Position numbers and translations under genes: made by a program. DNA of 29,490 bases from a virus. The notes beneath the pieces were generated by a model. It was not told where the DNA came from. It worked only from the letters and a program-made list of their open reading frames with translations, and ran no database searches. The DNA lies in the IMG/VR virus record IMGVR_UViG_3300007561_000014, positions 1 through 29,490 of that record; one strand, given 5' to 3'. Shown here piece after piece: positions 1,030-25,473 of the stretch (positions are counted from its first letter, which is position 1; every line of letters starts with the position of its first letter).

Positions 1030-1032
1030 GTG

Positions 1033-1727: not shown

Positions 1728-1763
1728 GGGCGAGCCTACTGCGCACTTCCTAGGGATGGGGGC

Positions 1764-1810: not shown

Positions 1811-1819
1811 GATAGTTTT

Positions 1820-2743
1820 ATGGCAAAATCAAAATGGAGCAGTATGACCACACAACTATGGCGCAACCCTGAAGTTGCATCGTTGAGCATGGAGGCTCGC
1901 GGTCTGTTCATGGAGCTGGTCATGTGGCAGCTCGAGCAAGGCTTCATCCCCGACGACCCGCTGTACTTTGAGCGGCTGTACGGTCGATTATGCTCGACTG
2001 ACTTTCATGCGTCATGGGCCGAGGTGACGGGCATCTTGGCTCGGACGGACAAGGGCTTTGTGTCGCCGTTCGTGGCGCAGGTCATGGAGGCTGAGAGCCA
2101 GGCGAAGGAAGAGGCTCGGCAGCGCCAGTCGAAGAAGCGCAGCAAGGATGCGAAGTCCTGTCACGCCGTGTCACGCGTGACATCGCGTGACCTTCCTCCC
2201 CCCTCTCCCTCTCCTCTTCTTTCCCCCCCACCCCCTATTAACTCCTCTCCCCTCACCCCCTCTCCATCCTCTCCCGAGGGGGCCGAGCCAAAAGTCTCGG
2301 CGGCGACCCAGCGTGAATTTCTCGACTGGTGGAAGGCACGCTGGAAGCAGGCACGGGGGACCGAGTACCTGATCCAAGCCAAGGACGCGGTGAGCGCCAA
2401 CAAGCTCCTCAAGGCTGCGTCGATGGACGAGGTGAAGCGCAGGGCCGAGCTGATGCTTGACCATCAAGACGCCTGGATGGCCGCTAGGGCGTCGTTGACC
2501 ACCTTGTTGGGCCAATGGAACCAACTGGTCGCCAAGTCCCCGCAGAACGCAGCACAGCGCGTTACAGTGGGTCAGCCTCCGCGCAGTTCCGATGACGAAT
2601 TGCGCGACGAATGGGAAAAGTGGAACTCGAGGGTACGCAATGCGATTCCTCCGTGGGTAGGCTCAGAGCAGGCCAGGCAGGACATCGAGATGCTCAGGGA
2701 GATCTGGAGGAAGAAGAATGCAGCAAAGGCAGCGTCCACCTGA
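1820..2743 (+). CDS. Replication initiator-like protein
   Basis: A 307-residue protein. The N-terminal 100 residues (TTQLWRNPEVASLSMEARGLFMELVMWQLEQG then IPDD) fit the winged-helix fold of phage replication proteins of the DUF1376/replisome-organiser type, where the same pattern of a short helix, SLSxEARGL and GxIPDD recurs. Residues about 120-155 form a Pro/Ser linker (PPPSPSPLLSPPPP). The C-terminal half (about 160-307) is charged and helical, rich in Trp, and could recruit helicase or primase. The ATG at 1820 follows a sigma70-like promoter and has only a weak ribosome site; the internal ATG eight codons later is the alternative. A palindrome cluster and a pyrimidine tract lie inside the gene, as origins lie inside lambda gene O. 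The role is inferred from domain pattern and context. Confidence 0.7.
   Translation: MAKSKWSSMTTQLWRNPEVASLSMEARGLFMELVMWQLEQGFIPDDPLYFERLYGRLCSTDFHASWAEVTGILARTDKGFVSPFVAQVMEAESQAKEEARQRQSKKRSKDAKSCHAVSRVTSRDLPPPSPSPLLSPPPPINSSPLTPSPSSPEGAEPKVSAATQREFLDWWKARWKQARGTEYLIQAKDAVSANKLLKAASMDEVKRRAELMLDHQDAWMAARASLTTLLGQWNQLVAKSPQNAAQRVTVGQPPRSSDDELRDEWEKWNSRVRNAIPPWVGSEQARQDIEMLREIWRKKNAAKAAST
2159..2191. repeat. Palindromic half-site cluster inside the replication gene
   Basis: TGTCACGC occurs at 2159-2166 and 2169-2176. Its inverse GCGTGACA occurs at 2175-2182, and GCGTGAC again at 2185-2191. The middle pair makes a perfect 14-bp palindrome, TGTCACGCGTGACA, at 2169-2182. Sites of the same orientation are exactly 10 bp apart, one helical turn. 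The cluster directly abuts the pyrimidine tract. Confidence 0.65.
2191..2274. other. 84-nt polypyrimidine tract, possible origin element
   Basis: The plus strand has 78 pyrimidines in 84 bases, no G at all, and an unbroken run of 39 pyrimidines at 2191-2229. It codes for the Pro/Ser linker of the replication protein. Such asymmetry can form triplex or easily unwound DNA and sits next to the half-site cluster. Selection for a Pro-rich linker alone is the alternative explanation. Confidence 0.55.
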
Positions 2744-2930
2744 CGTGTGGATCATCGTCTACCACAGCCAGGCTTACGGCCCATTCGAGACGCGGCTAGA
2801 CGCCTGCGATGCGGCAGCTAGGCGCTGGGGAACGGAAGGAGACTGGGAGCCACGTTTGCTGAATCCCAGTCTGACCAACACTTGCATGACGGTGCGCAAG
2901 GCACCGCCGCAAGTCACTCCGCCTTCTTGA
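2718..2930 (+). CDS. Small hypothetical protein after the replication gene
   Basis: A 70-residue protein starting at ATG 2718 inside the last codons of the replication gene. A strong ribosome site (GGAGGAAGAAG) lies just upstream, which decides the start. The sequence VWIIVYHSQAYGPFETRLDACDAAARRWG has the look of a small alpha/beta fold. No family is recognised. Its 3' end overlaps the end of the convergent holin-like gene by 17 bases, so the two transcription units run into each other here without a visible terminator. Confidence 0.65.
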   Translation: MQQRQRPPDVWIIVYHSQAYGPFETRLDACDAAARRWGTEGDWEPRLLNPSLTNTCMTVRKAPPQVTPPS

Positions 2931-3132
2931 CTTCGGCGAGCTTGGCAGCAACGACAGGTTGCAGCTTCGAGGCTGCTTCCTTCACGCCGTATGCGCCTTG
3001 GCCGGCCATCACCACTTCCCACGGGATGATGATGCCGATCTTCTCGAGCAGCACTTTCAGAATGGGCAGGAGGATGCTGACCCACCAGGTCGAGCTACCA
3101 ACGATCTTGGCAAGGATGGCTTGGATGTTCAT
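2914..3132 (-). CDS. Small holin-like membrane protein
   Basis: A 72-residue protein with a hydrophobic segment at about residues 14-30 (STWWVSILLPILKVLL) and a second, weaker one at about 33-44 (GIIIPWEVVMAG). It ends in a Lys/Glu-rich cytoplasmic-type tail. One or two membrane spans plus a charged tail fits small phage holins, which open the inner membrane at lysis, but no endolysin lies next to it. The ATG at 3132 overlaps the stop of the preceding gene as ATGA, so the two are probably translationally coupled. A second holin-like protein is encoded at 16796-17077. Function is inferred from topology only. Confidence 0.65.
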   Translation of the reverse strand: MNIQAILAKIVGSSTWWVSILLPILKVLLEKIGIIIPWEVVMAGQGAYGVKEAASKLQPVVAAKLAEVKKAE

Positions 3133-3590
3133 GGGAGATTCAGTTGCGGAGGCGGAGGTTCTTTAGGCTCGGAGATTTGCGCCTCAATCATCTTCGAGAC
3201 CAGCTTCTTGGCTCGCGCCTGTTGTAGCATCTCGATGGCCTTCAGCACATGCGTGGGCCGGCGAGACGTTTTCAGGATGCGCGTAATCGTACGTGACACC
3301 ATGTACTCGGCTTCCGCTTCAGAGAGCGGGATGCCGGCGTCGAGCTTCTTCTCGATCTCAGCGATGCGTTCAAGGAAGCTCGTGTCGGCTGCACCGACAT
3401 AGCTGCTTTGGTCGCCCTGTCCGCCGTTGCTATCAGGTCTCACCCAGATGTGCTTTCTGCCTTGCATGCGCCGTTCGTAGTCTTGCCGGCCACGTGAGTT
3501 GCTGTAACGCATAAGCGCGTCGGCGTCATCAAGACTCATATTGGGCACGTAAGGCTCATCCGACGTTAGGTCGTCGCCCTTCGTGCCCAT
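3129..3590 (-). CDS. Hypothetical protein, helical and charged
   Basis: A 153-residue protein from ATG 3590. The N-terminus is acidic (MGTKGDDLTSDEPYVPNMSLDDADAL). The middle is basic (RRMQGRKHIWVR), and residues about 88-145 form charged helices (LERIAEIEKKLDAGIPLSEA and ITRILKTSRR), ending in a proline run (PKEPPPPQ). It does not match a family I can name. A small adaptor or small-terminase-like function is possible because of its size and helices, but the zinc-binding gene beside terL is a better positional candidate. It sits in the sulfatase operon, 2 bases after the Lys/Met-rich gene and overlapping the holin-like gene. Confidence 0.75.
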   Translation of the reverse strand: MGTKGDDLTSDEPYVPNMSLDDADALMRYSNSRGRQDYERRMQGRKHIWVRPDSNGGQGDQSSYVGAADTSFLERIAEIEKKLDAGIPLSEAEAEYMVSRTITRILKTSRRPTHVLKAIEMLQQARAKKLVSKMIEAQISEPKEPPPPQLNLP

Positions 3591-3592
3591 GA

Positions 3593-3760
3593 TCAGCGAC
3601 CCATGCCGCCGCTCTTCATCTTCATGGCGCTGCCAGTCTTAGCGCCCTTCGGCATCATAGCCTTCTTCGCAGCACCGCCAGCTTTTGCCGCCGGCATGCG
3701 CTTGGGGCCAGAAGCCTTACCCATCATTTTGCCGCCACTCTTGCAGGATGAACCCTTCAT
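3593..3760 (-). CDS. Small Lys/Gly/Met-rich basic protein
   Basis: A 55-residue protein from ATG 3760 with a good ribosome site (AAGGAAGTGAT) just upstream. It is almost wholly Lys, Gly, Met, Ala and Ser, with blocks such as KSGGKMMGKASGPKRM and KAKKAMMPKGAK-like runs. Low-complexity K/G/M proteins of this size are common beside structural genes in podoviruses of aquatic bacteria, and their role is not established. Binding to DNA or RNA is plausible from the charge. A longer in-frame opening upstream overlaps the Arg-rich gene and is not needed. Confidence 0.7.
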   Translation of the reverse strand: MKGSSCKSGGKMMGKASGPKRMPAAKAGGAAKKAMMPKGAKTGSAMKMKSGGMGR

Positions 3761-3761
3761 A

Positions 3762-3935
3762 TCACTTCCTTTTGGTTTTACCGCTGATACGCATGGCACC
3801 GGCAGGTGACCGCGCTGCGGAGTTCGACTTGCGCTCGCGCATTCGCTCGCGCCGTTCGTAGCCACGCGACTCACCGCGCTCGTGACGCGGACCTTCGCCT
3901 CGTTCGTACCCGCCTTCGCGTTTGGCGTGTGCCAT
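3762..3935 (-). CDS. Small Arg-rich protein
   Basis: A 57-residue protein, read from ATG 3935 to TGA 3762. The stop of the upstream gene and this start share one base (TGATG), so translation is coupled. The sequence is a repeated YERGEG, HERGES, YERREM-like pattern: YERGEGPRHERGESRGYERR. It is very rich in Arg, Glu and Gly and probably disordered. The following gene takes its ribosome site from the last codons of this one. No family is recognised. Its place between two coupled genes is the main support that it is translated. Confidence 0.65.
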   Translation of the reverse strand: MAHAKREGGYERGEGPRHERGESRGYERRERMRERKSNSAARSPAGAMRISGKTKRK

Positions 3936-4207
3936 CAGTACGCTCCGTACTTGTTCATTTGCTGGGACGTGTACATCGCTCCAGCGCTCGGCCCCATGCC
4001 GAAGCCCTGGCGACGGTAGTTCTTCATACTGCGCAGCATCTGCTCACGCGCATACAGTCCAACCTTGGGGTCTGTGCGATAGCGCGGCGATGCGCCTACC
4101 GGCATCTGCGGCTGCGGCGTAGCACCGAACGGCGACTTGCTGGTGAAGCCGTACACCTCTTGCATGTAGCTGTTGGGCTTCGACTCGTAGTAGTCCTTGT
4201 TCTTCAT
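3935..4207 (-). CDS. Hypothetical protein coupled to the sulfatase
   Basis: A 90-residue protein from ATG 4207. The sulfatase stop TGA overlaps this ATG by one base, and a strong AAGGAG ribosome site lies in the last sulfatase codons. A GTG one codon earlier is possible but less likely. The sequence is polar, with many Tyr, Gln, Met and Pro residues (NSYMQEVYGF, ATPQPQMPVG, GMGPSAGAMYTSQQMNKYG). That composition resembles small virion or scaffold-associated proteins more than an enzyme. No family is recognised. The coupling to the sulfatase on one side and to the Arg-rich gene on the other ties the sulfatase into the phage operon. Confidence 0.75.
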   Translation of the reverse strand: MKNKDYYESKPNSYMQEVYGFTSKSPFGATPQPQMPVGASPRYRTDPKVGLYAREQMLRSMKNYRRQGFGMGPSAGAMYTSQQMNKYGAY

Positions 4208-5700
4208 CACCAGGCTCCTTGTAGGCTAGCGTACAATGACACCGCCTGTAAGTACGCATCTTTTTGCGTAGTCGTCATGGTCTGGCCAGTAGCCAGCTTG
4301 TTCGTGTCCTCGAACGGGTCAGCGCCAAGATCAAAGAATGCGTCTGAGTTCGTAGGAGTAACTGCTGCCCAGACACCAGGCGATGTCTCGGTCATGGCTG
4401 TGAAGCCTGCGACCCCTACTTGGCTGAAGCGTACGAGTTTGTAGTACGCATTGTTGTAGCGTACGACAACGGCTCTGGTGCCGGTGACGGTGGCGTAGAG
4501 GTTGGGCTTGTTGGGAGAGAACTTGTCGATCAGCAGCGACGTGCGGACTGTCGTCGTAGCCGGCGTGGTGCACACGGCCCAGAACGACTGACTGTTGCGG
4601 CTACCGCCACCTGCGACGCCGGTGCCGCTGGGCGGCGAGGAGACGAGCGCGGAGTTGCCGCCAGCGATCTCGATCACGGTGGAGAACAGGTCAGCCGGTG
4701 CGACGAGCGCGTCCGAGCTGCGGCCAGGCGTCGAGACCTTGGGGCCAGCCACGACCATGGGGACGTTTGTGCCGAGGTCGTAGACGGTGTACTTGGACTT
4801 CAGGCCGTTCAAGCCTTGAGCGACGTTGCTCTTGTCGGTGCCGTTGTCGGACCACAGGATCACGACGGTGTTGGCGCGTTGCTCTTGCGGGATGCCATTC
4901 AGCAGCACCCCGAACAAGTAGTCGGTGGCCTGCACCATGGCAGAGAAGTACAGCCGGCAGTTGGCCTCGCGCAACGCAGTCGAAGCGAACGAGCCAGACT
5001 CGTCTTGGTAGATGTCCGGCAGCACGTACTTCTCGCTGTCGTACATGTACGTCGGCGGCTTGTGCATGGGGCCGTGCGGCAGGTTTAAGGGCACGTACGC
5101 GAACCAGGGCTTGGTCTGGCGCTGGATCCACTCCGTGCACTTCTGCACAGTCCACAGCGGCGCATACATGTCGACTTGCTCGAGCGTCAAGTCCATGCCG
5201 TAGTACGTCTTTTTGGCGTGCCAGCCCTCAAATGCGTAGTACCCATCTTCCGGCGCGGGGTTGCCCTCGATGCCGTAGAACTCATCGAAGCCGGCGGTGA
5301 TGGGGTGAGAGGCTGCTCCGCCCATTGAGTTGTTGTTGGACAGGTGCCACTTGCCGAACGCGCCACATGCGTACGCATACGACGTAGCCTGCTTCAACGC
5401 CTTCGGCAAACAGACCTCGTTGTCCAGCAACGGCTGCGTCCCGCCCTGCACAAGGTCAGCAACCCCAGTCTTGAACCCGTACCGGCCAGTCATGAACGCT
5501 GCCCGTGTAGGCGAGCACCACGGCTGCGAGTACGCTCGCGTGAACTTGACGCCGGCCTGCACGAGCGCATCAAGGTTAGGCGTGCGAATGTTGCCGAGCG
5601 TAGAGTCGTACGACGTCACGTTGTACCGCGACGCATACACCGTCCACGCATCCATCCCGAAGTCGTCCGGCACTACCACAAGGATGTTAGGTCTGGTCAT
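4207..5700 (-). CDS. Type I sulfatase (arylsulfatase-like)
   Basis: A formylglycine-dependent sulfatase that would hydrolyse sulfate esters from a carbohydrate or aryl substrate. Counting from ATG 5700 (497 residues), the calcium ligands D12-D13 lie in RPNILVVVPDDFG. The active-site signature CSPTRAAFMTGR has C62 as the formylglycine residue and R66. K117 and H119 fall in GKWHL, H209 in NLPHGP, and D285-N286 in WSDNG. A lysine (301 or 303) precedes YDLGTNVP. The C-terminus has the usual FFDLGADPFEDTNKL. Thus every catalytic position known for the family is present. Maturation needs a host formylglycine-generating enzyme. No signal peptide is seen. In-frame starts at ATG 5742 and GTG 5793 are possible and none has a good ribosome site. 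The substrate is unknown. The gene is coupled to a phage gene by TGATG. Confidence 0.92.
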   Translation of the reverse strand: MTRPNILVVVPDDFGMDAWTVYASRYNVTSYDSTLGNIRTPNLDALVQAGVKFTRAYSQPWCSPTRAAFMTGRYGFKTGVADLVQGGTQPLLDNEVCLPKALKQATSYAYACGAFGKWHLSNNNSMGGAASHPITAGFDEFYGIEGNPAPEDGYYAFEGWHAKKTYYGMDLTLEQVDMYAPLWTVQKCTEWIQRQTKPWFAYVPLNLPHGPMHKPPTYMYDSEKYVLPDIYQDESGSFASTALREANCRLYFSAMVQATDYLFGVLLNGIPQEQRANTVVILWSDNGTDKSNVAQGLNGLKSKYTVYDLGTNVPMVVAGPKVSTPGRSSDALVAPADLFSTVIEIAGGNSALVSSPPSGTGVAGGGSRNSQSFWAVCTTPATTTVRTSLLIDKFSPNKPNLYATVTGTRAVVVRYNNAYYKLVRFSQVGVAGFTAMTETSPGVWAAVTPTNSDAFFDLGADPFEDTNKLATGQTMTTTQKDAYLQAVSLYASLQGAW

Positions 5701-5956
5701 AGCAGTCAGCGACACAGGCGGGATAGACGGCACGCACACCATGTCCGCCAAAAAGGCGCTTTTCGTCAAGCACAAACCGACATTTTCCCACACTCCTAAC
5801 TACCTACCACCACCAGCATTAGCACATACCCCCACAACCATCACTTGCCAACTCTTGACCGCACTTGCTACAACCCCCACACCCCCACAGCGCTAGCGTT
5901 AGCCCCCACGTCAGCGTGTGAGCTTGAGCCACACACCACCAACGCTGTCAACTTGC

Positions 5957-5982
5957 GCAACAGGGTGTTGCCAAATGCAACA
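5957..5982. promoter_or_regulatory. Operator-like GCAACA palindrome with extra half-site
   Basis: GCAACA (5957-5962), spacer GGG, and TGTTGC (5966-5971) form a perfect 6-bp inverted repeat. A third GCAACA follows at 5977-5982, exactly 20 bp (two helical turns) after the first. It lies upstream of the sulfatase on the minus strand and could bind a regulator. Recognition by a named protein is not shown. Confidence 0.35.
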
Positions 5983-6117
5983 GCCGCCTGCCCTCCCGCA
6001 CGCTAGCACACAGAAAACGCTAGCCGCTACCAAAATTGCGTGAGGGCATTGCCCCCTCCCCGCATCGTCGGCCACGAAAGCCCCCTGCCACCCTCCCGTG
6101 GGGGGTGCTCGAGCGCA

Positions 6118-6147
6118 CGAACGCACGCGAACGAGCGCGAACGAGCG
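6118..6147. repeat. Three tandem 10-bp repeats
   Basis: CGAACGCACG is followed by two copies of CGAACGAGCG. The period of 10 bp equals about one helical turn. They lie in non-coding sequence between the terminator and the sulfatase. The function is unknown. Confidence 0.55.
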
Positions 6148-6290
6148 TCGTCGGGTGTGGGCATCGTCCCCGCTCCGCTCCGCTTGGCTTCCGTCCGCTC
6201 CGGCTCGAGCGTGGGCGATGGATCGGCGGGAGTGTAAACGGATGCGCGGATCCGGTGAGCGTGCGTCTTCCCCTGGGAGTGTGCACAGAC

Positions 6291-6326
6291 AAAAAGACAG
6301 GGAGCGCGCGCGGGCGGCTCCCTGTC
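6291..6326 (-). terminator. Intrinsic terminator of the orphan gene
   Basis: A perfect 10-bp stem, GACAGGGAGC at 6296-6305 with GCTCCCTGTC at 6317-6326, encloses an 11-base GC-rich loop. On the minus strand it is followed by five T residues (6295-6291). It begins about 30 bases after the stop of the minus-strand gene that ends at 6357, where a terminator for that gene is expected. The stem itself is built from the repeated GGACAGGGA motif. Confidence 0.75.
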
Positions 6327-6955
6327 CCTGTCTGTCCTGTCTGTCTGGCTGTCAGACTACTGTCCGTCTCCCTGTCCTGTCTTCCTCCGGCGGAGGCGAT
6401 GCACAGCACGATGCGCGACATAGAGCGCGCGAGCCGCGCGCGCCTCCGCATCTCGCCAGTCTGTCTCTCCCTGTCCCTCAGCGCGAAGAATGGATGCAAG
6501 CGCGCGGTCCGCCGAGTAGTCCGCGCGAGTCTGCGGCTGTCCCTGTCCTCGCATCGTGTCAGCGATCGACTGCGGATCGAGCGATCCACGGCGTGTCTGT
6601 GCCGAACCACGGACCATGCCACAGCGTGATGGATGCATCACGATGCTGTGTAGACCGCGCGATTCATGCGCGATCGTGACAGGCTCCAGCCGCGCGGGTG
6701 GCGTTCCTTCAATCGCGCCGGACAGGATCAGGGACAGGCGCGAGACGGTTCCGGCATCGCCAGACTGCCACGCGCGCCTCTGTGCCTGTCTCGCATGCCA
6801 CACTGCGAGTCGCCAGACTTGCTGGCGCTCCGCGCGGCTGTCTCCCTGTCCCTGTCCGATCAGTGCTGTTCCATTGTCTGTCAATCCGATGCTGTTCATG
6901 CTGTCTCCCTGGCTGTGCCGGACAAGCGCGAGCGATGCGCTCCCTGTCCCTGTCC
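6319..6955. repeat. Eight dispersed copies of a 9-mer (GGACAGGGA on the minus strand)
   Basis: TCCCTGTCC on the plus strand starts at 6319, 6369, 6468, 6540, 6843, 6849, 6941 and 6947. I do not find it elsewhere in the window. One copy lies in the terminator stem, five in the orphan gene and two upstream of that gene. The copies in the gene all read Gly-Gln-Gly. Confidence 0.7.
6357..6899 (-). CDS. Orphan protein with repeated GQG segments
   Basis: A 180-residue protein from ATG 6899 to TAG 6357. The start has a good ribosome site (GGGAG, five bases before ATG), and a strong intrinsic terminator follows the stop; both support a real gene in spite of the repeats. The N-terminus (MNSIGLTDNGTALIGQGQGD) leads to a basic helix-rich part (AERQQVWRLAVWHARQAQRR). 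The C-terminal helix is Ala/Arg-rich (DAEARAARALYVAHRAVHRL). GQG or GQGQ occurs at four places, each encoded by the repeated DNA 9-mer. No family is recognised. It is the only minus-strand gene between the sulfatase and the early block, and it is divergent from the first early gene. A small DNA-binding or regulatory protein is possible. The alternative is that the opening is a by-product of the repeats. Confidence 0.6.
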   Translation of the reverse strand: MNSIGLTDNGTALIGQGQGDSRAERQQVWRLAVWHARQAQRRAWQSGDAGTVSRLSLILSGAIEGTPPARLEPVTIAHESRGLHSIVMHPSRCGMVRGSAQTRRGSLDPQSIADTMRGQGQPQTRADYSADRALASILRAEGQGETDWRDAEARAARALYVAHRAVHRLRRRKTGQGDGQ

Positions 6956-6969
6956 GGCTGTCTGTGGGG

Positions 6970-6990
6970 TAGTATCGGACACAATCGAGC
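6970..6990 (-). promoter_or_regulatory. 21-bp element, copy facing the orphan gene
   Basis: On the minus strand it reads GCTCGAT, five bases, CCGATACTA, and ends 70 bp before the ATG at 6899. A TTGCAT lies 17 bp before GATACT, so it may include a sigma70-like -10. The matching plus-strand copy is at 7221-7241. The match covers GC-CGAT and CCGATACTA, with the five bases between them differing. Confidence 0.45.
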
Positions 6991-7104
6991 ACAATGCAAG
7001 CCCACAGCCTGTTTTTTGCGCGCTTCTAAGTACTTGCAGGGTAACAGGTTAGAGCCGCGCGCGCGGATTGTCGCCAGATATGGGGGACCGTGGCCGCATA
7101 TGGC

Positions 7105-7143
7105 GGACGGACGGACAATGGACGGACGGACGGACGGACGGAC
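7105..7143. repeat. GGAC tetranucleotide repeats
   Basis: Three copies of GGAC (7105-7116), then AAT, then six copies (7120-7143). TGTC/TGTCC repeats of partly complementary sequence follow from about 7166 to 7188, so a large imperfect hairpin is possible. The copy number may vary between related phages. Confidence 0.7.
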
Positions 7144-7220
7144 GCAAGCGCGCAAGCGCGCGCGCCTGTCCGCCTGTCTGTCTGTCCGATTATGTCCGAT
7201 ATTCGCGCCGATAGTCCGGC

Positions 7221-7241
7221 GCACGATGTACACCGATACTA
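7221..7241 (+). promoter_or_regulatory. 21-bp element, copy facing the early genes
   Basis: It reads GCACGAT, five bases, CCGATACTA, and ends 65 bp before the ATG at 7307. Its partner on the other strand lies 70 bp before the divergent gene. The shared spacing suggests a promoter or an operator common to both directions. No good -35 box is seen for this copy, so an operator or a phage-specific promoter is as likely as a sigma70 promoter. Confidence 0.45.
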
Positions 7242-7306
7242 GTCAACCTGGCAACCTACGCTTGTCGCGTATGTGCCTGTCCTGACGGTATCGGCGGAGT
7301 GTTTGT

Positions 7307-13566: not shown

Positions 13567-14066
13567 TGGCAAAGGTCAGCCCCACGCAGCGTAGTCTCAA
13601 GCACCTGCGTGAGGCTGGCTATCACGTCGAGATCGTTGAACGCTGGAACCAGTGGTCGCGGTCTCGACACGACCTGTTCAACATGTTTGATCTGCTCGCC
13701 CTGCATCCCGATGGCACGCTCGTCGGGGTGCAGGTGACGAGTACCGCACACGTAGCCGAGCGCGTCGCCAAGCTAGAGGCGAACCCGCTGCTCGCACTGT
13801 GGGCTAAGAAGAACACCGCTGTCGTACATGGCTGGGCCAAGCGTGGCCCACGCGGCAAGCGGAAACTCTGGACGTTGAAGGAGGAAAGCTGTGACGAACA
13901 AGGAAGATTCAGGCCCGTGGTTCTGGCTGAAGATCATACTGACGATTGCGTTGATCCTGGTAGTGTTGGCCGTGTTCGGCCCACTCGCCGCCGTGCTCGC
14001 GTTCTTCGGGATGGCGGTGCTGGACAAGCTGGACACGATTGCCAAGCAGAGGAACAGCAACGATGA
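13566..14066 (+). CDS. PD-(D/E)XK-like nuclease family protein with a long tail
   Basis: The first 110 residues look like a small nuclease-fold protein: WNQWSRSRHDLFNMFDLLAL carries a conserved Asp (42). GTLVGVQVTS follows, where the usual E-x-K is Q56-x-T58, as in a group of phage homologues, so catalytic activity is uncertain. From about residue 110 the frame continues for 56 more residues that are Arg/Gly-rich and look like a shadow of the membrane gene at 13891. A stop in another frame (13892-13894) at the start of that membrane gene would be the expected end, so either the protein has a long overlapping tail or the frame has shifted. The stop at 14066 overlaps the ATG of the next gene as ATGA. 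Confidence 0.7.
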   Translation: MAKVSPTQRSLKHLREAGYHVEIVERWNQWSRSRHDLFNMFDLLALHPDGTLVGVQVTSTAHVAERVAKLEANPLLALWAKKNTAVVHGWAKRGPRGKRKLWTLKEESCDEQGRFRPVVLAEDHTDDCVDPGSVGRVRPTRRRARVLRDGGAGQAGHDCQAEEQQR

Positions 14067-14070
14067 GTGA
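13891..14070 (+). CDS. 59-residue membrane protein, out of frame within the nuclease gene
   Basis: Starts at GTG 13891 with a very strong ribosome site (AAGGAGGAAA). The first 14 residues are polar (TNKEDSGPWFWLK), then a long hydrophobic stretch of about 28 residues (IILTIALILVVLAVFGPLAA, then VLAFFGMAVL) and a basic tail (DKLDTIAKQRNS). One or two membrane spans are likely. It shares nearly all its length with the 3' part of the nuclease gene in a different frame. The hydrophobic run and ribosome site make it the more likely product of this stretch. A function in lysis or exclusion is possible. Confidence 0.65.
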   Translation: MTNKEDSGPWFWLKIILTIALILVVLAVFGPLAAVLAFFGMAVLDKLDTIAKQRNSNDE

Positions 14071-14335
14071 CATGTTCTCAATCGCAGACAAGGTGTACGC
14101 CATCGTGGCGGACGTGCTCGAATGCAAGAGCGACGACCTGACACGGGACACCGAGTTCATTGCTGACCTGGGTGCAGACCAGCTCGACATGCTGGAGATC
14201 GCACAGCTATTGCAGCAGACGTTCCGCATGCAGGTGCAGGCGAACGACCTCGAGCGCCTGACCACGGTCGGGCTGCTGTTCGACTACGTGCACTACCACG
14301 CCAGCGACTGCCGGCAACCTACGCCTTACGACTGA
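14063..14335 (+). CDS. Acyl carrier protein-like, prosthetic serine replaced by Gln
   Basis: A 90-residue acidic protein matching acyl carrier proteins over its full length: IADKVYAIVADVLECKSDDL, DTEFIADLGAD, LDMLEIAQLLQQTF and the end LTTVGLLFDYV. In the normal motif DSL the serine carries 4'-phosphopantetheine. Here the motif is D39-Q40-L41 (codon CAG), so the protein cannot be loaded at that position. It may instead act as a structural partner or as a mimic that binds host ACP partners. ATG 14063 has AGAGGA upstream and overlaps two preceding stops. It is the last plus-strand gene and ends 3 bp from the convergent virion operon. Confidence 0.85.
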   Translation: MSDMFSIADKVYAIVADVLECKSDDLTRDTEFIADLGADQLDMLEIAQLLQQTFRMQVQANDLERLTTVGLLFDYVHYHASDCRQPTPYD

Positions 14336-14338: not shown

Positions 14339-14719
14339 TCATGACCTCTGTTCGTCGTGAAGGATCTCATCCTCGACGACCTGATTGCCGCCGATGAATG
14401 TGCATCCGTAAAGCTCGGAAGCCCCTCGGATGATTGCGTTGCCGTAGACTCGTGACTCACCGTCAACGCGGGACGTGCCCTCGACGATGCAGTTGCCGAG
14501 GCACTGGGTCTCGTGGCCCACAAAGCAGTCCCCACGGATCTGTGCCTGCTCATAGATCCAGGCATCGTCACAGACCCAGGCGTTGCCGTAAACCTTGGCG
14601 GTCGAGTCGATCCAGACCGAGTCATCCACGACTGCGGTGTCAGCTACCCAACCCCCGCCATTGGCGTGCTGGTGGGCCGCTACAGGGCCGTTGCCGTCAC
14701 CGAAGTCATAGGTGGTCAT
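14339..14719 (-). CDS. Beta-solenoid hexapeptide-repeat protein
   Basis: A 126-residue protein. From about residue 22 to 110 it follows a six-residue pattern (VADTAV, VDDSVW, IDSTAK, VYGNAW, VCDDAW) typical of left-handed beta-helices, with later blocks IRGDCF, VEGTSR and VYGNAI. Similar small proteins exist in phages, and the fold is also used by hexapeptide acyltransferases, but no catalytic histidine motif is seen. As the last gene of the virion operon, after tail-fibre-like genes, it could cap or decorate the tail. The start overlaps the previous stop (ATGA). It ends 3 bp from the convergent ACP-like gene without a terminator. Confidence 0.75.
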   Translation of the reverse strand: MTTYDFGDGNGPVAAHQHANGGGWVADTAVVDDSVWIDSTAKVYGNAWVCDDAWIYEQAQIRGDCFVGHETQCLGNCIVEGTSRVDGESRVYGNAIIRGASELYGCTFIGGNQVVEDEILHDEQRS

Positions 14720-16795: not shown

Positions 16796-17077
16796 TCACT
16801 TCGGTCCCTTGACCTCAGGCACCGAGATCGTTGCGTTCTGCGCTGCAAGCTGCCATGCCCAGGCTTCCATCTGCGAGCGCGTCCATGTGTTGGATTGGTC
16901 GCGCTGCATCACCTCGAGCTTGTGACTCATGTCTGATCGTAGCATCTGGATCTCATTGCCGAGATCAGTCATGGTCTTGACTGCTACTGCTGTCCCACCG
17001 ATGACCGAGAAGAGGACGGTGATCACGATGCCCAGCGGCAGCGCACCAGTAGTGAGGTCGAACATCTTGTCGTTCAT
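16796..17077 (-). CDS. Holin-like or Rz-like membrane protein
   Basis: A 93-residue protein with one hydrophobic span at about residues 13-34 (LPLGIVITVLFSVIGGTAVA). A charged, coiled-coil-like region follows (MTDLGNEIQMLRSDMSHKLEVMQRDQS) and then a polar tail. One span plus a periplasmic or cytoplasmic coiled coil fits small phage lysis proteins. No endolysin is seen next to it. Its ATG overlaps the stop of the giant virion gene as ATGA, so it is coupled to late expression. Confidence 0.7.
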   Translation of the reverse strand: MNDKMFDLTTGALPLGIVITVLFSVIGGTAVAVKTMTDLGNEIQMLRSDMSHKLEVMQRDQSNTWTRSQMEAWAWQLAAQNATISVPEVKGPK

Positions 17078-20000
17078 CGCGGCATGATCTCAAGGTTACC
17101 CCACGGGATAGACGGTTTGTATCCAGGGGTGCTTTCCAGTTTTTGAGTTTGGATCTGCTCTTTCTGGGCCTTGCGGAGCTTGGCTTGAAGAGTCACTTGT
17201 TTGTACTCTTCGGGCGCCGCTTTGCGCTTCACTTTTTCTGTGACATCTTGGGCGATTGTTACCGCCAGCCGCATGAACTCTTGGCGTTGAGCACGAGCCA
17301 TGGTTGGGTGGTTCTGGCTGATGTAGTGCAGGGCAGAAACACAGTCCCATGCTTCATTCAATGCCCTGTACTCGATGTAGTCAGGCAGTGTTTCAGGGAT
17401 GCGCGTGCTTGCCTTACGCTTGTCGGCCATCTCTTTCATCATGGCCAACTGCTGGATGATTGGACTCCGCATCGTGAAGGGGCCAGTCTTAGACGTAAGA
17501 CCACCACCCCACATCGAGCCATAGCCTGGAGCCTGCTTGGCAGCTTCTGGAGTCTGCGGCCCCTCTAGCTCCAGCAACGTAGCCAGGTTGTCCGCTGCTC
17601 CAGCAATGAACCCTTCGATGATGTGGTCGGCTTGACGCGGCGAGACAGCGCCATTCAACGCCTCGGACAGATAGATACCGACCTCAGTGGTGTACGGAGT
17701 GACGCGCTCTTGGCTTGGACCTTGAGCAAGAGCAGGTTCCACGGGAGAGTGCATCTCGTTTGACTCGATACCCAAAGCCGTGAACCCTTTATCGACAATC
17801 CACTTGTTCAGGTCGTTGACGTTTGCTGCGTTCTCAAGGCCAGCCTGCACGAACTGCGGCATCAACGCAGGCATGAACGCATTGATGAACGCCTTAGTTT
17901 GGTTGGCTGCGTAGTACGGATCACGACTGCTCATGCCATCAAGCACTGCGACCAACAGCTTGGCCGGCAAGAACTCGGTCATCGGGTTCGGGATGCGCAG
18001 CACCTCGGTTGTCCCCTCCTCGGTCTTGTATCCGAAGAGCCAATAACGCAGACGATCCTCGTACGATGCATTCTCGTACGCTTCCTTCATCGCCGGATCT
18101 TCGTCGTCGTGCGCCATCGCCCAGTACGCCATGGCCATACCCATGAGGCCAGCCATCTTGATGCCGTACTGGATGCGGGTGCGCGGGTCACCCATCTGCT
18201 TGGCGGCGTTGCGGAAGAAGTCGCGGGTCGTTACAAAGGTAACGTTGAAGTACGGAAGGTAGCGGTTCAGCTCCCCCGCCGTGCGACCCGACAAACTCCA
18301 GTTGGTCGTGACCCTGCGCAGTGCAACCGTTGCAGCAACCCACTGCTCTTGACTGATCGGCCCTTCGCCTGAGTAGCCGGCTTGCTTGAGCGCCTGCTGC
18401 ATCTCGAGCATGCGTCCGATCCGCGACGGGAATGAGAACTTGCGTTCAGCCAAACGCCACAGGTCGCTGTTCGGCTTAACGATGTTGGGCAGGGTCAGTA
18501 GATGCTTGATCCGCTGGCCGCGAGTCATCATCACATATTCAATAGATGACTTGCTCATGGTCGCAGACCAGGGCGAGTCAAAGCTGCCAGCCATCCGCTT
18601 GTACTGTTCGTACGGCTCGTACTTGACGCCGACTTCAGCAGCAGCCAAGCGCAAGTACATAGCAGGGTAGTCAACCAACGCCTTGAGACCAAACCACGGC
18701 TGCGTGCCGTTCATGTATGTGGTCCCGAAGTCCATGATCGGAGCAGCGATCAACTGGAACTTATAGTTCAAACCAGTCGCGAAGAGCTTGAAGGCACTTG
18801 TGGCGCCTTGCAGTACGCCAAGCGCCCAGTGCGAACGCCACGCCTGCATAACCTCCTGCGGCTTCATCGCTGCAACAGCAATGGCCAAATCCTTGTGGAT
18901 GCTGTAGCGGCGCTTGATCGGTTTCTTAGTGACTACCGTTCTGCCGTCAGGAGTTGTTGTCGTCACATCCTGTACGTCAACGTAGTCAACAATCACTCGG
19001 TCATCGCTGTTGACATCCTGCGCTGCATTCAATCCCATCTCGCGCAGAGCGGCGATGTTTGCTGAATCACCAACGTCAATCATGCTTGCAGCAGCTTTGC
19101 CGCTGGGCGTAGACGCCGGCTCTGGTAGAACACCGCCTTCGTCAATGTCTGTCAAGTCAGTGACAAAGTGCGGCTGCTTCATTACATCCGCGACATTGAT
19201 CACGTTGCGGATAGCCATCCGCTTGTGGACTAGTGTCAGCAACGCCTGAAGATTTGCTTCGCTTTCCCGCAGTACATCATTAACAGGCGAGACAGAGCCA
19301 CGCAGCTTGCCTTCGGTGCCGCGACCAGAAATTGAAACCGTACCTTCTCCAGCGCGACGCACATCAAACACAGCGGCCAAGCCTGTGTCAGCCGACTGGC
19401 CAGTAGCCATGTCGTAGATGACACGCTGCAACGGGACATAGGTACCAGTCGTGCCGGTCGCCTCTTCGTACTTGGCAATCGAATCAAACACCTCGGCGAA
19501 CAGAGGATCGTTTGCCTTGACGTAGTCGATGGCATGTCCCCACCACGCCATGAACTGAGCATGCGATAGCTTGATTGCTTCGCCGTACTTCTTTTCTAGG
19601 CGAATGATTGTCTCGCGCTGGGGGTTAATACCATCAGGCGAAGCAACCGCTCGATCACTTTCATACAAAGCAATCGCACGCTTGGCGTACAGGTAATCGC
19701 TAAAGTCTGAGGCTTGCTCGGTTTCGCCGATCTCGCCAGCCTTGCGACGCATCGGATCCAGCGCCATCTCTAGCGACTGCGATCCTGGAATGACGTTGCC
19801 ATGGCCATCGGTCATGCCGACAGACATCCACGTTTGCAGCAGGTTCGCGTTGATTGCTGCAAGCGCCTCGTTCATGTCGTTGACGCGCAGGCGATCCAGC
19901 TCGTTCTTCGACAAGCCGATCTTCTTGCCCTTCGCAATCGCGTCTTTTTCTTGGAGCCGCGTGCCAACCATCACGTTGACAAGCTCGCGCTCATAGAAGC

Positions 20001-23000
20001 TGAGTGTCAGCAGTTCCTTGACCCGCTGCTTCCACGGCTTCGACTTGCGCTTGACCTGCGCGGCCTTGCTGATCTTCTCAAAGCCTTGGAATCGGTATGC
20101 AGTGAACCTGCTAACGGCTTGGTCGTATGCCTTGCCAATGTCAGGGTTCTTCTGCATCAGATCCGCAAGCCACCGCGATGTCTCAGGGTACGCCGCGTTG
20201 TACGCTTCAGGGCGGATGATGCTGCCCATCACGAACTCGGCCACGCCTTCGTGCATGTGGCCACCAGCCGGCGGGATACTGCTGGGGTACACCAGCTTGC
20301 CGAGCTTTGTCATCTCTGCACGCACAGCCGCCGGCATCGCAGCATCTAGAGCCGTGACACCTTCAATCCCCGCGCCAAAGACACGAGCAACCAGCGCGTG
20401 TCCGATCTCGTGCAAGGTCACATGGAAGTTAAACTTGTTGGCGGTACGAACTACACCATTCAAGTCATAGCGGCCAATGTACGGCGTGCCGCTCATCTCC
20501 GCTGTAACCAGCGGGGCAACAACTGCGTTGGCCAGATCCACTACAGCATCGCGCAAGTCGATCTTGGTCACGGGTGCCGCAGGCGGATTGGTGAGCGTAG
20601 GCTCCAGCGTGCCGGTTAGCGATGCACCCTCGAAGCCAGGCGCGTCACCCATCTCAATGATGGGCTGGCCCATACGCTCGCCCAGTGTGGTATCCGCGCC
20701 ACGCAGCGCGTCGTAGTTCATGCGAGGCTTGCCGAACCCAGAGTCGCGACGCGACTTCTCGGCTGCACGCGCTGACCGAGCCACGTCGTTTCTACGGGCA
20801 TTGGCTGCTGCACGGCGACGCAGTTCACCCTGAGCCAAGGTGCGATGCGCAACCCACGTTGCAACGCTTGTTGCTTTGGCTGGCAGCGCCACGACCCTTG
20901 GCCTCACCGCTGTAACAGTCGGCACCCCAGTGACAGGGTCAACCTTGGTCTCGACCGCCTCGCCCTCTAGGCCAACAGGAATCTGGCTGTTGATCATTAC
21001 CTGCAACTGTTCATCGGTCGCAGTGCCAATGAACTCAGCGGTCGTGTCCAGCGCAGGGCCAGCTTCAAGGCGCACATCCGGCGACATCACTTGAAGCTCT
21101 ACATACGGATCAGCCGTCAATGCGGCATCGAGTCGATACTCGTACGCAGTCTTGCCAGGCGGCGGCTTGCCAACTTCAGCGGAGACGCCAGCCTTCGGGA
21201 TGGCAGTCTCTCGTGCACCAGGCTTGCCAAACGAAGTCGACTCTGGCGTTGGCGCCGTAGCTTCGATGGTCTGACCTAGTTGCTGTGCAGCATCAAGCGA
21301 CAAAGCATAGGTCGTTCGCTCGCCTGGGACGGATACCAGCAAGCCAGCGTCTCTCATCAACGCTAGGGATTGGAGCACCCGCTCACGGCGCTGTCCGATG
21401 TCTTCATCTTTCGACTTCGGAACACCGCCCATCAAGGTGTCGACGGTGACGCCGTTCGGTGACTGCGCCACAATCTGAAGCATCCGCTTCAGGAAGTTGC
21501 TGAAACCAATCTTCGCCCCGCCATACACCTCAGGCATTGACTTGGCCAGCACAACGCCAGCCTGCTCAGGCGTGACGTTGTACTTACCCTTGGCGGCATT
21601 TGCCGGTGCAGCTCCTGCTTCTGTGGCAGCAAGCGGTTCAGGCTGCGTTCCACCAAAGACGTCAGGCAGCAGCTTCTGTAGTTGCTCCTGCGTTACGCGG
21701 CGAGTCTCTTCGGCACCCAACCGCTTTGTCAGCGTGTTTTCGCGGTCAACCTTGGCTTTGCGAATCTTCTTTTGAGTAGCAACAACCGTTCTGCTCCATG
21801 CCCTGTCTGGGCTAACCGGCACGCCGATGCCCTGCGCTTCTGCCTTTGCCAAAGCAGTAGCTTCGTCGAGGCTTGTCTCAAGAGCAGCAATCTCCTGCTC
21901 GAGCTTTCGTTCCTGCTCGAGTAGCTGCTGCGCTTGAGCATCCGACTGCTCCATCAACTGGACTAGCGCCCCAGCCTTCTGGCGAACCTGATCTTCAAAC
22001 GCACGGGCTTTCTCAGTCTGTTGCGGAGCGCCGTCTTTCTCTCCCGCTTCGCGAATGATCTGTCGGCGCAGATCTTTAAGAGCTTTTTTGCGTTCGCTGC
22101 TCTCAGGCACAGGCAGCAGCAGCGCTTGTAGTTCTTCTGCTTGACGCTCAGTCAGCTCGCCGGCTTCCTTGCGGCGCTTAACCTCCGCTTGGATTTCGGC
22201 CTTGCGTGCAGCTTCAGCCGCATCCTGTTTTGCAACCAACTCTTCGTACTGCTGCTTAAGCCGCTTGATGTCATAGCGGCTTTCTGCCATCTCGCGATTG
22301 CGAAGATCAGTCGGACTAGAGTCGTACCACTTTAGGAACTCGCGCTCAAGTTGAGCACGCTCACGCTCAACCATGTCGGGGTTGGTAGCACGCTTCTCCT
22401 GCATGTATGCATCAAGCGCAGCTTGACGCTGTTTAGCAGGAGCGCTCTTAGCTTCCTGCTCTGCGGCTTGCTCTCTGGCTCTATACCACGCACTTAATTC
22501 TTTGCGGCTTGCTGCTCCTTCTTTCTCCAGCAGCTCGCGCTCCTTGTATGGAGTTCGGTCATACCACTGCAAGAACTGACTCTGAAGTCGATCAATGTCG
22601 CGCTGTGTAAGGTCTGGATTGGCAGAAGACTGCTCATCCATGAACGCCTTAAGCGCGGCCTGTCTTTGCTTGGCTGGAGCTTGTTCCGTGGCTTGGGCAG
22701 CATCAGCCTCTCGAGACTTGTACCAAGCCCGCAACTTGTCGAGCTGTGCAGTGCTTTCCTTTTCCTCCTTGCGACGCTCCGTATATGGGGTCGCCCGATA
22801 CTGATCCAAGAACTCCCTACGGAGTCGTTGATCATCACGCTCGGTAAGGTCAGGATTAGCGGCCTTTTGCTGCCGCATGTACTCTTCTAGAGCTTTAGTT
22901 TCCTGCTCCTTCGCGGCACCTTCGGTTGCCTTCTCAGCTTCAGCTTCGGCAGCTCGCAGCTTGCCAAGCAAACCCTGATAGTCTTCTTCTTGTCTCTTCT

Positions 23001-25473
23001 GTTCTGCCTCGCGGTCTTGAGGGGACAGCTTGTATTGTTCAGTTAGCTCCCTGTATGCAAGAGCTACATCGCGCTCGGTCGCATCGGGTGACTTTTCAAG
23101 AGCAAGAACTTTTGCTTGGGTACGAAGATCTGCCTCGCGCAGCTCGTCTTGGTATTTACGATATGATTCACCAACAGCACGATCAGAGTCTTTACGCGCT
23201 CTCTCGGCGCTTGCCTTTGCCGCTGTCTTAATCTCTTTCGTGCGTGCTGTCCGTTGAGCCTCAGCCTCTGGCCCACCGACGACTCCCTCTAGCCGCTGCT
23301 GCGCGGTCTCTTCAGGCGTCGGTCCACTGGCTGCTTGGTAGGCTTCGTACTGCTCAATGTATTGAAGCTGCTGCGAGCGACGAAGCTGAACGGCCTGCTC
23401 TTGCGTAACGCCGGATGGCCACGTCTTTGAATCGAACAGATCAATCGTGACGACCTTGGCGTACTGCGGCTCAACCGGCACGCCTTGATCCAGACGACCA
23501 CGCACATTACGCGCCACCGCCGTAGCGATTCCGATGTCGATCTTCTCTTCGGCTGCGATGATCGCCGCGAGTTCATTGACTCGCACATCACGCGGCAAGT
23601 TCTGCTCGTTCAGCGCCTGGCCGTAGTACTTGTCAGCAATCGTCTGCTGCTTGACGTCGGGCTTGCGTGCCTCGATGCGCTGCGTCAGCTCTTCAGCCGG
23701 CGTGACAACATCAATTGTGCCGCCAGGGATCTGTCGTTGCAGTTGTCGCTGGACAACATCTACATCATCCTTCTCCGTAAGGCGAGACAGGATGACATTG
23801 CCTTCCTTGTCCTTCAGCCGCACGACTACAGCATCAGGGCTTGTCGGCTTGCCCTTGCCCATGCCGTACAAGATCTGGTCTAGCGTCGCTTCTGTGACGC
23901 CACCCTCTGACTCGTTGGCAATCGTCAGCGCAGACGCAATGCCTTGGTCTCTTGTGTAGACCGTGCCGGAAGCACCGCCCTCGCCTTTGATCTTGACAGG
24001 GATAACCTTGGAGGCGCTCTCAAACAGCGCCGGCGAAGGGGCTGGAGATCCATCCGCAACGAACACCGCATACTTGTTGTTGCTCTCGTCGAGCATCGCC
24101 GAGAACTGCGCGTCGATGTAACGTTGCGGTTCAGGCTCGATGCCCTTGAAGTCTGCTGTGCCCAAGATCGGAGCAATGCGCTCCGTCTGTTCAGGACTCA
24201 GGCGCTCAAACGGCAACACCTCGCCTGTCTCTTCATCTAGAACAGGACGATCACCAATCTTCGGCGACAGGTGTGTTTCGCCACGTCCGCGACGGGCCAC
24301 CATCAATTCAACGGCGCCACGAATCAAACCACCTACTTCGGCACCGCCCTTGCCTGCTGCTTGCAGTTCAGCGATGACTTCATTTAGCTCGACCATGTCC
24401 GCATCGGTTGCGTACATGACGCCGAAGTTCACGAATAGCTGCTCAAGGATCTCTTGGAAACCTTCAGCGGCAGCGGCTGTTCCGACACGCCCAACGGCAT
24501 GCCTGTTCAGCCCGTCCATCATCTTCTGGAACTTGCCGCCGGACGCCTTGTTCCAGCGAGCAGCCATCTTCAAGTACGTATCACTGAGCTTCTGCGTCAG
24601 AGGCAATCCAGCGATCTTTTGCCCCAACACGAACTTGGTGGACAAACCAGCCGTTGCCGCCGCCGGCGCTCCAGCAATCAGGCCACCGACAAGCGCGTCT
24701 TCAAATGGAGCGCCTAGCTCGCGAGCACGCACATACGCTTCGTTTGACTGCGCCAACGCAGCCATGCCGCCAACTGCAAGCAAGCCGCCAGAGCCAGGGA
24801 TCAAACCTAATACAAGGTACGGAGAGGTTCCGCCTACATTGGAGGCAAGCCCCGTGCCCCAGAACTCCAGCACTTCAGGCGAGCGAGCACGATGCCTCTT
24901 GGCCATCGTGTCGCGCACGTAGTTGCGCATGTCTAATTGGCCGAAAGCGTTTCGACCGCTACCGTCACCTTTGCCGCGATTCAACATCGCGTTGGTGAAC
25001 GGCTTTCCGAATTGCTCCCACGTATACAGGTCCGCTTGGTTCTTGTCTCCAGCGAACATGGTGGTGGCGATGTCGTCGCGGAACTTGCGGTATTCGTCGT
25101 CCCCTTGAGTCAGGGGCACGTCGTAGGTCAACGCAAAGTCGTGCATCAATCTGGGAATAGAGTCTTCCCAGGTGTCTACGGTTTGGTTGGCGCTGATAAA
25201 GAACGCCTCACCCATAGCCGCAGAGTAGTCCAGCATCGAGGCCGGCGGCTTGGCCGCAGGCGTTGCCACAGCAGGCGGTGGCTCGCGCTGCTGCGCAAGC
25301 TGATTGAATGTGTCAGCTCCAATGCTATTCAGCAGGTATTGGTCGCCACTGTCGTTGGGATCAAATGCGATCCCTGCTGCTTGGCTGATGTAGTCATCAC
25401 CGCTATCCATCGGTGAGACGGCCAACGGGTTCTGCTGTGACGCTTGCTGGGGAGCCTGCTGCGGGTCTTGCAT
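17074..25473 (-). CDS. Giant internal virion protein with protease motif and LPD38-like domain
   Basis: A 2799-residue protein. Residues 1-60 are Gln/Pro-rich. A hydrophobic part lies at about 210-285 (YLVLGLIPGSGGLLAVGGM, LVGGLIAGAPAAATAG). Four copies of a 79-residue charged coiled-coil unit fill about 795-1110. A zinc-protease signature, HEIGH at 1688-1692 with EGVAE at 1742-1746, follows. The C-terminal part, about 2190-2500 (including RRVTTNWSLSGR and LPYFNVTFVTTRDFFRN), resembles the domain that closes many phage large polyvalent proteins (LPD38, from memory). Its place after two smaller internal-type proteins recalls podovirus ejection proteins, so it is probably packed in the head and sent into the cell with the DNA. 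No polymerase or lysozyme motif was found. The role is inferred. Confidence 0.85.
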   Translation of the reverse strand: MQDPQQAPQQASQQNPLAVSPMDSGDDYISQAAGIAFDPNDSGDQYLLNSIGADTFNQLAQQREPPPAVATPAAKPPASMLDYSAAMGEAFFISANQTVDTWEDSIPRLMHDFALTYDVPLTQGDDEYRKFRDDIATTMFAGDKNQADLYTWEQFGKPFTNAMLNRGKGDGSGRNAFGQLDMRNYVRDTMAKRHRARSPEVLEFWGTGLASNVGGTSPYLVLGLIPGSGGLLAVGGMAALAQSNEAYVRARELGAPFEDALVGGLIAGAPAAATAGLSTKFVLGQKIAGLPLTQKLSDTYLKMAARWNKASGGKFQKMMDGLNRHAVGRVGTAAAAEGFQEILEQLFVNFGVMYATDADMVELNEVIAELQAAGKGGAEVGGLIRGAVELMVARRGRGETHLSPKIGDRPVLDEETGEVLPFERLSPEQTERIAPILGTADFKGIEPEPQRYIDAQFSAMLDESNNKYAVFVADGSPAPSPALFESASKVIPVKIKGEGGASGTVYTRDQGIASALTIANESEGGVTEATLDQILYGMGKGKPTSPDAVVVRLKDKEGNVILSRLTEKDDVDVVQRQLQRQIPGGTIDVVTPAEELTQRIEARKPDVKQQTIADKYYGQALNEQNLPRDVRVNELAAIIAAEEKIDIGIATAVARNVRGRLDQGVPVEPQYAKVVTIDLFDSKTWPSGVTQEQAVQLRRSQQLQYIEQYEAYQAASGPTPEETAQQRLEGVVGGPEAEAQRTARTKEIKTAAKASAERARKDSDRAVGESYRKYQDELREADLRTQAKVLALEKSPDATERDVALAYRELTEQYKLSPQDREAEQKRQEEDYQGLLGKLRAAEAEAEKATEGAAKEQETKALEEYMRQQKAANPDLTERDDQRLRREFLDQYRATPYTERRKEEKESTAQLDKLRAWYKSREADAAQATEQAPAKQRQAALKAFMDEQSSANPDLTQRDIDRLQSQFLQWYDRTPYKERELLEKEGAASRKELSAWYRAREQAAEQEAKSAPAKQRQAALDAYMQEKRATNPDMVERERAQLEREFLKWYDSSPTDLRNREMAESRYDIKRLKQQYEELVAKQDAAEAARKAEIQAEVKRRKEAGELTERQAEELQALLLPVPESSERKKALKDLRRQIIREAGEKDGAPQQTEKARAFEDQVRQKAGALVQLMEQSDAQAQQLLEQERKLEQEIAALETSLDEATALAKAEAQGIGVPVSPDRAWSRTVVATQKKIRKAKVDRENTLTKRLGAEETRRVTQEQLQKLLPDVFGGTQPEPLAATEAGAAPANAAKGKYNVTPEQAGVVLAKSMPEVYGGAKIGFSNFLKRMLQIVAQSPNGVTVDTLMGGVPKSKDEDIGQRRERVLQSLALMRDAGLLVSVPGERTTYALSLDAAQQLGQTIEATAPTPESTSFGKPGARETAIPKAGVSAEVGKPPPGKTAYEYRLDAALTADPYVELQVMSPDVRLEAGPALDTTAEFIGTATDEQLQVMINSQIPVGLEGEAVETKVDPVTGVPTVTAVRPRVVALPAKATSVATWVAHRTLAQGELRRRAAANARRNDVARSARAAEKSRRDSGFGKPRMNYDALRGADTTLGERMGQPIIEMGDAPGFEGASLTGTLEPTLTNPPAAPVTKIDLRDAVVDLANAVVAPLVTAEMSGTPYIGRYDLNGVVRTANKFNFHVTLHEIGHALVARVFGAGIEGVTALDAAMPAAVRAEMTKLGKLVYPSSIPPAGGHMHEGVAEFVMGSIIRPEAYNAAYPETSRWLADLMQKNPDIGKAYDQAVSRFTAYRFQGFEKISKAAQVKRKSKPWKQRVKELLTLSFYERELVNVMVGTRLQEKDAIAKGKKIGLSKNELDRLRVNDMNEALAAINANLLQTWMSVGMTDGHGNVIPGSQSLEMALDPMRRKAGEIGETEQASDFSDYLYAKRAIALYESDRAVASPDGINPQRETIIRLEKKYGEAIKLSHAQFMAWWGHAIDYVKANDPLFAEVFDSIAKYEEATGTTGTYVPLQRVIYDMATGQSADTGLAAVFDVRRAGEGTVSISGRGTEGKLRGSVSPVNDVLRESEANLQALLTLVHKRMAIRNVINVADVMKQPHFVTDLTDIDEGGVLPEPASTPSGKAAASMIDVGDSANIAALREMGLNAAQDVNSDDRVIVDYVDVQDVTTTTPDGRTVVTKKPIKRRYSIHKDLAIAVAAMKPQEVMQAWRSHWALGVLQGATSAFKLFATGLNYKFQLIAAPIMDFGTTYMNGTQPWFGLKALVDYPAMYLRLAAAEVGVKYEPYEQYKRMAGSFDSPWSATMSKSSIEYVMMTRGQRIKHLLTLPNIVKPNSDLWRLAERKFSFPSRIGRMLEMQQALKQAGYSGEGPISQEQWVAATVALRRVTTNWSLSGRTAGELNRYLPYFNVTFVTTRDFFRNAAKQMGDPRTRIQYGIKMAGLMGMAMAYWAMAHDDEDPAMKEAYENASYEDRLRYWLFGYKTEEGTTEVLRIPNPMTEFLPAKLLVAVLDGMSSRDPYYAANQTKAFINAFMPALMPQFVQAGLENAANVNDLNKWIVDKGFTALGIESNEMHSPVEPALAQGPSQERVTPYTTEVGIYLSEALNGAVSPRQADHIIEGFIAGAADNLATLLELEGPQTPEAAKQAPGYGSMWGGGLTSKTGPFTMRSPIIQQLAMMKEMADKRKASTRIPETLPDYIEYRALNEAWDCVSALHYISQNHPTMARAQRQEFMRLAVTIAQDVTEKVKRKAAPEEYKQVTLQAKLRKAQKEQIQTQKLESTPGYKPSIPWGNLEIMPR
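22147..23091 (-). repeat. Four tandem 79-residue repeats in the giant protein
   Basis: Copies begin at residues S795, N873, N952 and N1031 (spacings 78, 79 and 79). The consensus is roughly NPDxxERDxxxLxxxFL, three to four residues, YxxxPYxER, then a Lys/Glu/Ala-rich helix with PAKQRQAAL. The first copy (SPDATERDVALAYRELTEQY) is the most diverged. This gives a long helical stalk. Confidence 0.75.

Follow-up and report, generated by a model that had tools for sequence, protein, structure and literature searches.

A catalytically complete sulfatase gene in a conserved slot of an uncultured tailed phage lineage

Introduction

Phages that cross polysaccharide layers are known to do so by cutting the chains or by removing acetyl groups. 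Sulfated glycans are common on aquatic bacteria and algae; to our knowledge, the removal of sulfate is not an established phage strategy. The stretch of DNA analyzed here, referred to as the window, is a virus record of 29,490 bases which ends inside the gene for a large terminase and in which the open reading frame at positions 4207–5793 of the minus strand encodes a sulfatase. The locus raises the question of whether a complete sulfatase belongs to a phage and, if so, on what it would act. Earlier surveys have counted sulfatases on viral contigs, including 13 on potential prophage regions (PMC11077953; see also PMC10029852). Those entries are lists; for the gene described here, we show that its slot is fixed, that its alleles are exchanged, and that it is under selection, and we present a model of its structure. 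The open-access literature searched yielded no experimental work on a sulfatase encoded by a phage.

Identification of a Complete S1-Type Sulfatase

The preliminary description of this DNA proposed a complete, phage-encoded sulfatase of the formylglycine type possessing all of the residues required in type I enzymes, and each element of that proposal was borne out. The translated frame matched the Sulfatase family PF00884 with 126.4 bits (curated cut-off, 25; E 1.9e-36). Numbering from the ATG at 5700, the ten catalytic residues are present, viz. the metal ligands D12 and D13 together with D285 and N286, the formylglycine motif C62-S-P-T-R66 (of the form C/S-x-P-x-R), the Lys-x-His pair K117 and H119, the later H209, and K303, which is the lysine seven residues before the glycine of DLGTNVP. 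These residues were invariant in the eight phage copies aligned, save that the copy of contig L014 ends at the contig edge before reaching D12–R66. No hydrophobic N-terminal stretch or signal peptide was apparent by eye, and no additional carbohydrate-binding or virion-attachment domain was seen in the protein.

The structure prediction that had been recommended as a check pointed to the same class of enzyme. An initial model built with eight phage sequences was poor (pLDDT 62.8) and was replaced by one based on 26 sequences, for which the mean pLDDT was 89.6 and the pTM 0.92. Over residues 1–497, this model adopts the two-subdomain, alkaline phosphatase-like fold of the sulfatases, with Z scores of 35–42 to solved enzymes. 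The best of these was the human N-acetylgalactosamine-4-sulfatase (GalNAc-4-sulfatase; 1fsu; Z 42.3, rmsd 2.8, 396 residues aligned), and the S1_19 carrageenan sulfatases PsS1_19B (6psm; Z 39.5) and ZgCgsA (9hh2; Z 39.8) were also matched. Most of the solved sulfatases matched by the model act on glycans, and the sequence profile pointed to the same group as did the predicted fold; S1_19, S1_16, and GalNAc-4-sulfatase lay close together in score in this comparison. The phage protein shares with these S1 carbohydrate sulfatases the predicted full-length fold, the catalytic residues, the CxPxR motif, and the C-terminal subdomain. It differs from them in having only 24–26% identity in structural alignments, in lacking a signal peptide as judged by eye, in being encoded among phage late genes, and in having no formylglycine-generating enzyme (FGE) seen nearby. 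Taken as a whole, the residues and the predicted fold provide good support for a full-length S1-type sulfatase of the formylglycine class that is catalytically complete by its residues.

The superfamily to which this protein belongs is promiscuous, and a weak match to PehA was obtained (40 bits against a cut-off of 900), such that a phosphonate or phosphate ester hydrolase might be considered in place of a sulfatase. Such an assignment is very improbable given that the sulfatase set of Asp285-Asn286, Lys117-x-His119, and Lys303 is entirely invariant and that the top fold matches are sulfatases. Phosphonate hydrolases use an Asp-His and are not known to have the Lys-x-His pair.

Start of the Gene and Its Neighbors

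The features of the locus are collected in Table 1. The preliminary description had placed the start of the frame at GTG 5793, and this is probably wrong. The DNA upstream of position 5742 is a conserved leader; where L004 and L006 have the counterpart of ATG 5742, the frame that it opens ends in a stop codon overlapping the sulfatase ATG, while in L003, L019, and L028 the sulfatase starts at the position of 5742. For these reasons, GTG 5793 was set aside as unlikely, and translation probably begins at either ATG 5742 (511 amino acids) or ATG 5700 (497 amino acids). At the other end, the overlap with the following gene and the ribosome site inside the sulfatase were as first described: the stop codon at 4209–4207 overlaps the next ATG at 4207–4205 (TGATG), and AAGGAG is found at 4220–4215 within the sulfatase. 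Stop and start also overlap or nearly abut in L003, L004, L006, L014, L019, and L028, i.e., at every junction inspected. With this junction to the late gene block and the same gene order in related phages, the earlier view that the sulfatase is part of the phage operon was upheld. No sigma-70-like promoter was found near the gene.

Table 1. Features of the 29,490-base window and the observations on which they are based.
Feature	Positions	Strand	Basis and remarks
Large terminase, cut by contig end	1..1029	-	Covers 74% of the L002 terminase at 100% identity; phrog_2 terminase large subunit, E 1.3e-9
Late gene, 153 aa	3129..3590	-	78–100% identical in relatives; begins near-identical terminase-portal block
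Small late gene; longest frame 93 aa, with abundant Gly, Lys, Ala, and Met	3593..3874	-	Kept in most relatives
Small downstream gene, 90 aa, ATG 4207	3935..4207	-	In exchanged block; unmatched in L004 and L006
Translational junction, AAGGAG ribosome site within sulfatase and TGATG stop/start overlap	4205..4220	-	Sequence
Sulfatase gene, minimal form	4207..5700	-	ATG 5700, 497 aa; start may be ATG 5742 (511 aa); PF00884, model, homologous genes on further phage contigs
CSPTR motif, Cys62 (formylglycine site) to Arg66	5503..5517	-	Sequence; invariant in every phage copy reaching it
Conserved upstream region or sulfatase leader	5743..6101	-	92–97% identical in L004 and L006
GC-rich stretch between divergent gene blocks	5800..7300		Long overlapping ORFs, probably spurious; conserved in L006 to about 6200
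Phage acyl carrier protein, phosphopantetheine attachment domain	14039..14335	+	PF00550, E 1.1e-10; phrog_5934; ends early gene block
126-aa protein	14339..14719	-	Weak hexapeptide/beta-solenoid repeat matches, below cut-off
2799-aa late protein	17074..25473	-	LPD38 large-polyvalent-protein domain, E 2.1e-10; no homologue in isolate phage collection

Phage Ownership and a Fixed Slot

Bacteria carry many sulfatases, and several matches in "phage" databases resemble bacterial DNA, so it had to be considered that a bacterial gene was misjoined to a phage contig through assembly error or host contamination. A search for relatives of the terminase collected 22 loci. Contigs near-identical or related to the window supply a complete terminase (that of L002), a P22-type portal, and a major head protein. 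The gene order that the preliminary description suggested be sought in viral metagenomes was found: nine contigs of the terminase lineage extend into the slot upstream of the late block (the window, L002, L003, L004, L005, L006, L014, L019, and L028), and each of them has a sulfatase there. Within this set, the window and L002 are nearly one phage, as are L005 and L006. The phage sulfatases formed a single clade against 18 bacterial sulfatases (support 100/99). Nor was there a close bacterial gene with bacterial flanks in the scan made; the best bacterial tblastn segments reached approximately 31% identity across the greater part of the domain, and some short stretches exceeded this, in a scan that was seeded by short peptides and hence samples the bacteria rather than covering them exhaustively. 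With independent contigs sharing the slot and near-identical phage DNA on both sides, bacterial contamination was ruled out and the probability of a misjoined gene is negligible. The sulfatase gene is real and is owned by the phage.

The lineage is one of uncultured tailed phages which, by their sequences, carry a P22-type portal. Matches to the terminase, portal, and RecE were too distant for identification of the host, and two giant late proteins were without matches. No integrase was detected among the ORFs scanned in this incomplete contig.

Homologues in other viruses were few. When three of the sulfatases were searched by tblastn against isolate phages, only weak matches were obtained, mostly 20–30% identical and none convincing; these involved unannotated fecal contigs and records named for Salmonella, Acinetobacter, and Campylobacter. 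One of these, Campylobacter phage A11a (MG065691, marked UNVERIFIED), was rejected as a homologue from an isolate phage since the record resembles bacterial DNA; the neighbors of its sulfatase, as named by eye, are a sodium symporter, a regulator of the AraC type, and a transporter of the MFS group. In a library of viral protein structures, all of the matches at E ≤ 0.001 were to giant viruses, at 10–16% identity, and none was to a phage. The giant-virus sulfatases (Yasminevirus, Satyrvirus, and Tetraselmis virus 1) and phrog_19870, a family without an assigned function, have the sulfatase fold or family in common with the phage protein.

A second phage was represented by L029, a contig of 73.7 kb. 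Its sulfatase (31% identical) has a complete set of catalytic residues, and no relatives of it besides L029 itself were found in IMG/VR. The gene overlaps a preceding gene for a protein of 339 amino acids and is followed by one encoding 1727 amino acids; an 825-amino acid gene also precedes it, and still farther upstream there is another gene with a match to a family of virion structural proteins (E 7.8e-15). This context supports, but does not prove, an association of the sulfatase with virion or late functions.

Selection and Exchange of Alleles

The sulfatase is under purifying selection, with dN/dS values of 0.09–0.25 in the better-resolved pairs: 0.164 (L004–L006), 0.192 (L019–L028), 0.245 (L014–L019), and, with a high dS, 0.092 (L003–L004). 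More distant pairs were saturated.

Compared with L004 and L006, the DNA of the window is 92–97% identical just upstream of the sulfatase and 94–100% identical from approximately position 3750 into the terminase block. Across the sulfatase gene, identity falls to 42–84% per bin of 100 alignment columns (57–60% in protein), and the small downstream gene has also been replaced in these two contigs. Despite a more distant backbone (terminase 83% and portal 89% identical), L003 has a sulfatase that shares 79% identity with the L004 protein, compared with only 60% for the sulfatase of the window. This discordance between gene and backbone indicates that alleles were exchanged. By these alignments, sulfatase alleles were shown to be swapped between phages with otherwise near-identical neighboring DNA. 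When the proteins of the window and L004 are compared, divergence is greater in the C-terminal half (53% identity) than in the N-terminal half (67%).

Identity between the window and L004 is also only about 60% for genes of the distal tail and for internal virion genes, and since these are about as divergent as the sulfatase, its exchange may be part of a general mosaicism; the notion of the sulfatase as the sole hypervariable gene was softened accordingly. Over positions 1–3940 of the window, the terminase-to-portal block is approximately 97% identical in DNA to L004 and L006, while the head and tail genes are approximately 60–80% identical in protein, a pattern that might reflect either strong mosaicism or the packaging block having recently swept through these phages.

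Proposed Function

The step from this genomic pattern to the function of the sulfatase is inferential. The balance tips, if modestly, toward a late, host-matured sulfatase that would desulfate extracellular polysaccharide on or around the host at adsorption or lysis. The enzyme would be expressed together with the late genes, and a maturation enzyme belonging to the host would install its formylglycine in the host cytosol. It would then act on sulfated polysaccharide outside of the cell, be it the capsule or exopolysaccharide of the host or surrounding algal polysaccharide, having been delivered either on the virion, as an aid to adsorption, or by release at lysis. That near-identical phages have traded divergent alleles would fit adjustment to a changing sulfated glycan, and suggests action on changeable sulfated sugars on or around bacterial hosts.

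No FGE (PF03781) was found in eight phage records, which are incomplete, while matches were present in four of 14 control genomes. Based on this and on what is established of sulfatase maturation, the phage sulfatase, if active, most likely depends on a maturase of the host.

An extracellular glycan was favored over sulfur gain as the object of the enzyme because of the glycan-sulfatase fold, the late position of the gene, the allele exchange, and the context in L029. As an auxiliary metabolic gene, the sulfatase would act in the cytosol of the infected cell and free sulfate from esters that are either intracellular or imported. The protein, lacking a signal peptide, would indeed remain cytosolic, and surveys have included sulfatases among viral auxiliary genes (PMC11077953, PMC10029852). 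Nevertheless, the gene is located with the late packaging genes, the early genes being on the opposite strand, its nearest folds are glycan sulfatases, no other sulfur gene was recognized in the window, and an exchange of divergent alleles is unexpected of a housekeeping metabolic function. With regard to an origin as a host-derived metabolic gene, the best bacterial segments in the scan seeded by short patterns were, as noted, approximately 31% identical. An auxiliary metabolic role is judged distinctly unlikely, and sulfur gain, given divergent alleles exchanged between near-identical backbones and a place among late genes, is the least favored of the roles proposed.

A narrower form of the extracellular reading, by analogy with the influenza neuraminidase as the model of decoy clearing, would have the sulfatase never on the virion; made late and released by lysis, it would desulfate receptor-bearing debris or slime such that progeny escape trapping. 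Its joining to the late block, the lack of a signal peptide or attachment domain, the presence within that block of a short hydrophobic ORF resembling a holin, and a swapping of alleles that fits a changing glycan are all consistent with this. In L029, on the other hand, the sulfatase lies among large virion-type genes, and release solely as a clearing enzyme is considered rather unlikely, though less so than a metabolic role.

Returning to action on extracellular polysaccharide in general, it is tentatively suggested, at somewhat less than even confidence, that the sulfatase is a surface-modifying enzyme, borne by the particle or released at lysis, and forms a host-range module whose alleles are exchanged to match differently sulfated capsules or slime. 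If so, it would represent a class of phage enzymes which strip charge from the chain instead of cleaving it and which depend for their activation on the formylglycine-generating enzyme of the host. This proposed logic resembles that of the capsule depolymerases and capsule-modifying enzymes of virions (tailspikes and deacetylases), which likewise address host-surface polysaccharide and have alleles exchanged between near-identical phages. Unlike them, the phage sulfatase would remove sulfate, neither cutting the chain nor removing acetyl groups, has no virion-attachment domain, and has a putative virion location only.

Concluding Remarks

Membership in S1 places the protein in a known family; what is new is the conserved slot with exchanged sulfatase alleles in a phage lineage. 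The family also supplies sulfatase sequences far from those known. If the proposed role is true, full activity of these phages could be confined to hosts possessing a sulfatase-maturing enzyme, which would constitute a rule of host range, and the swapped alleles would mark sulfated glycans that are under phage pressure.
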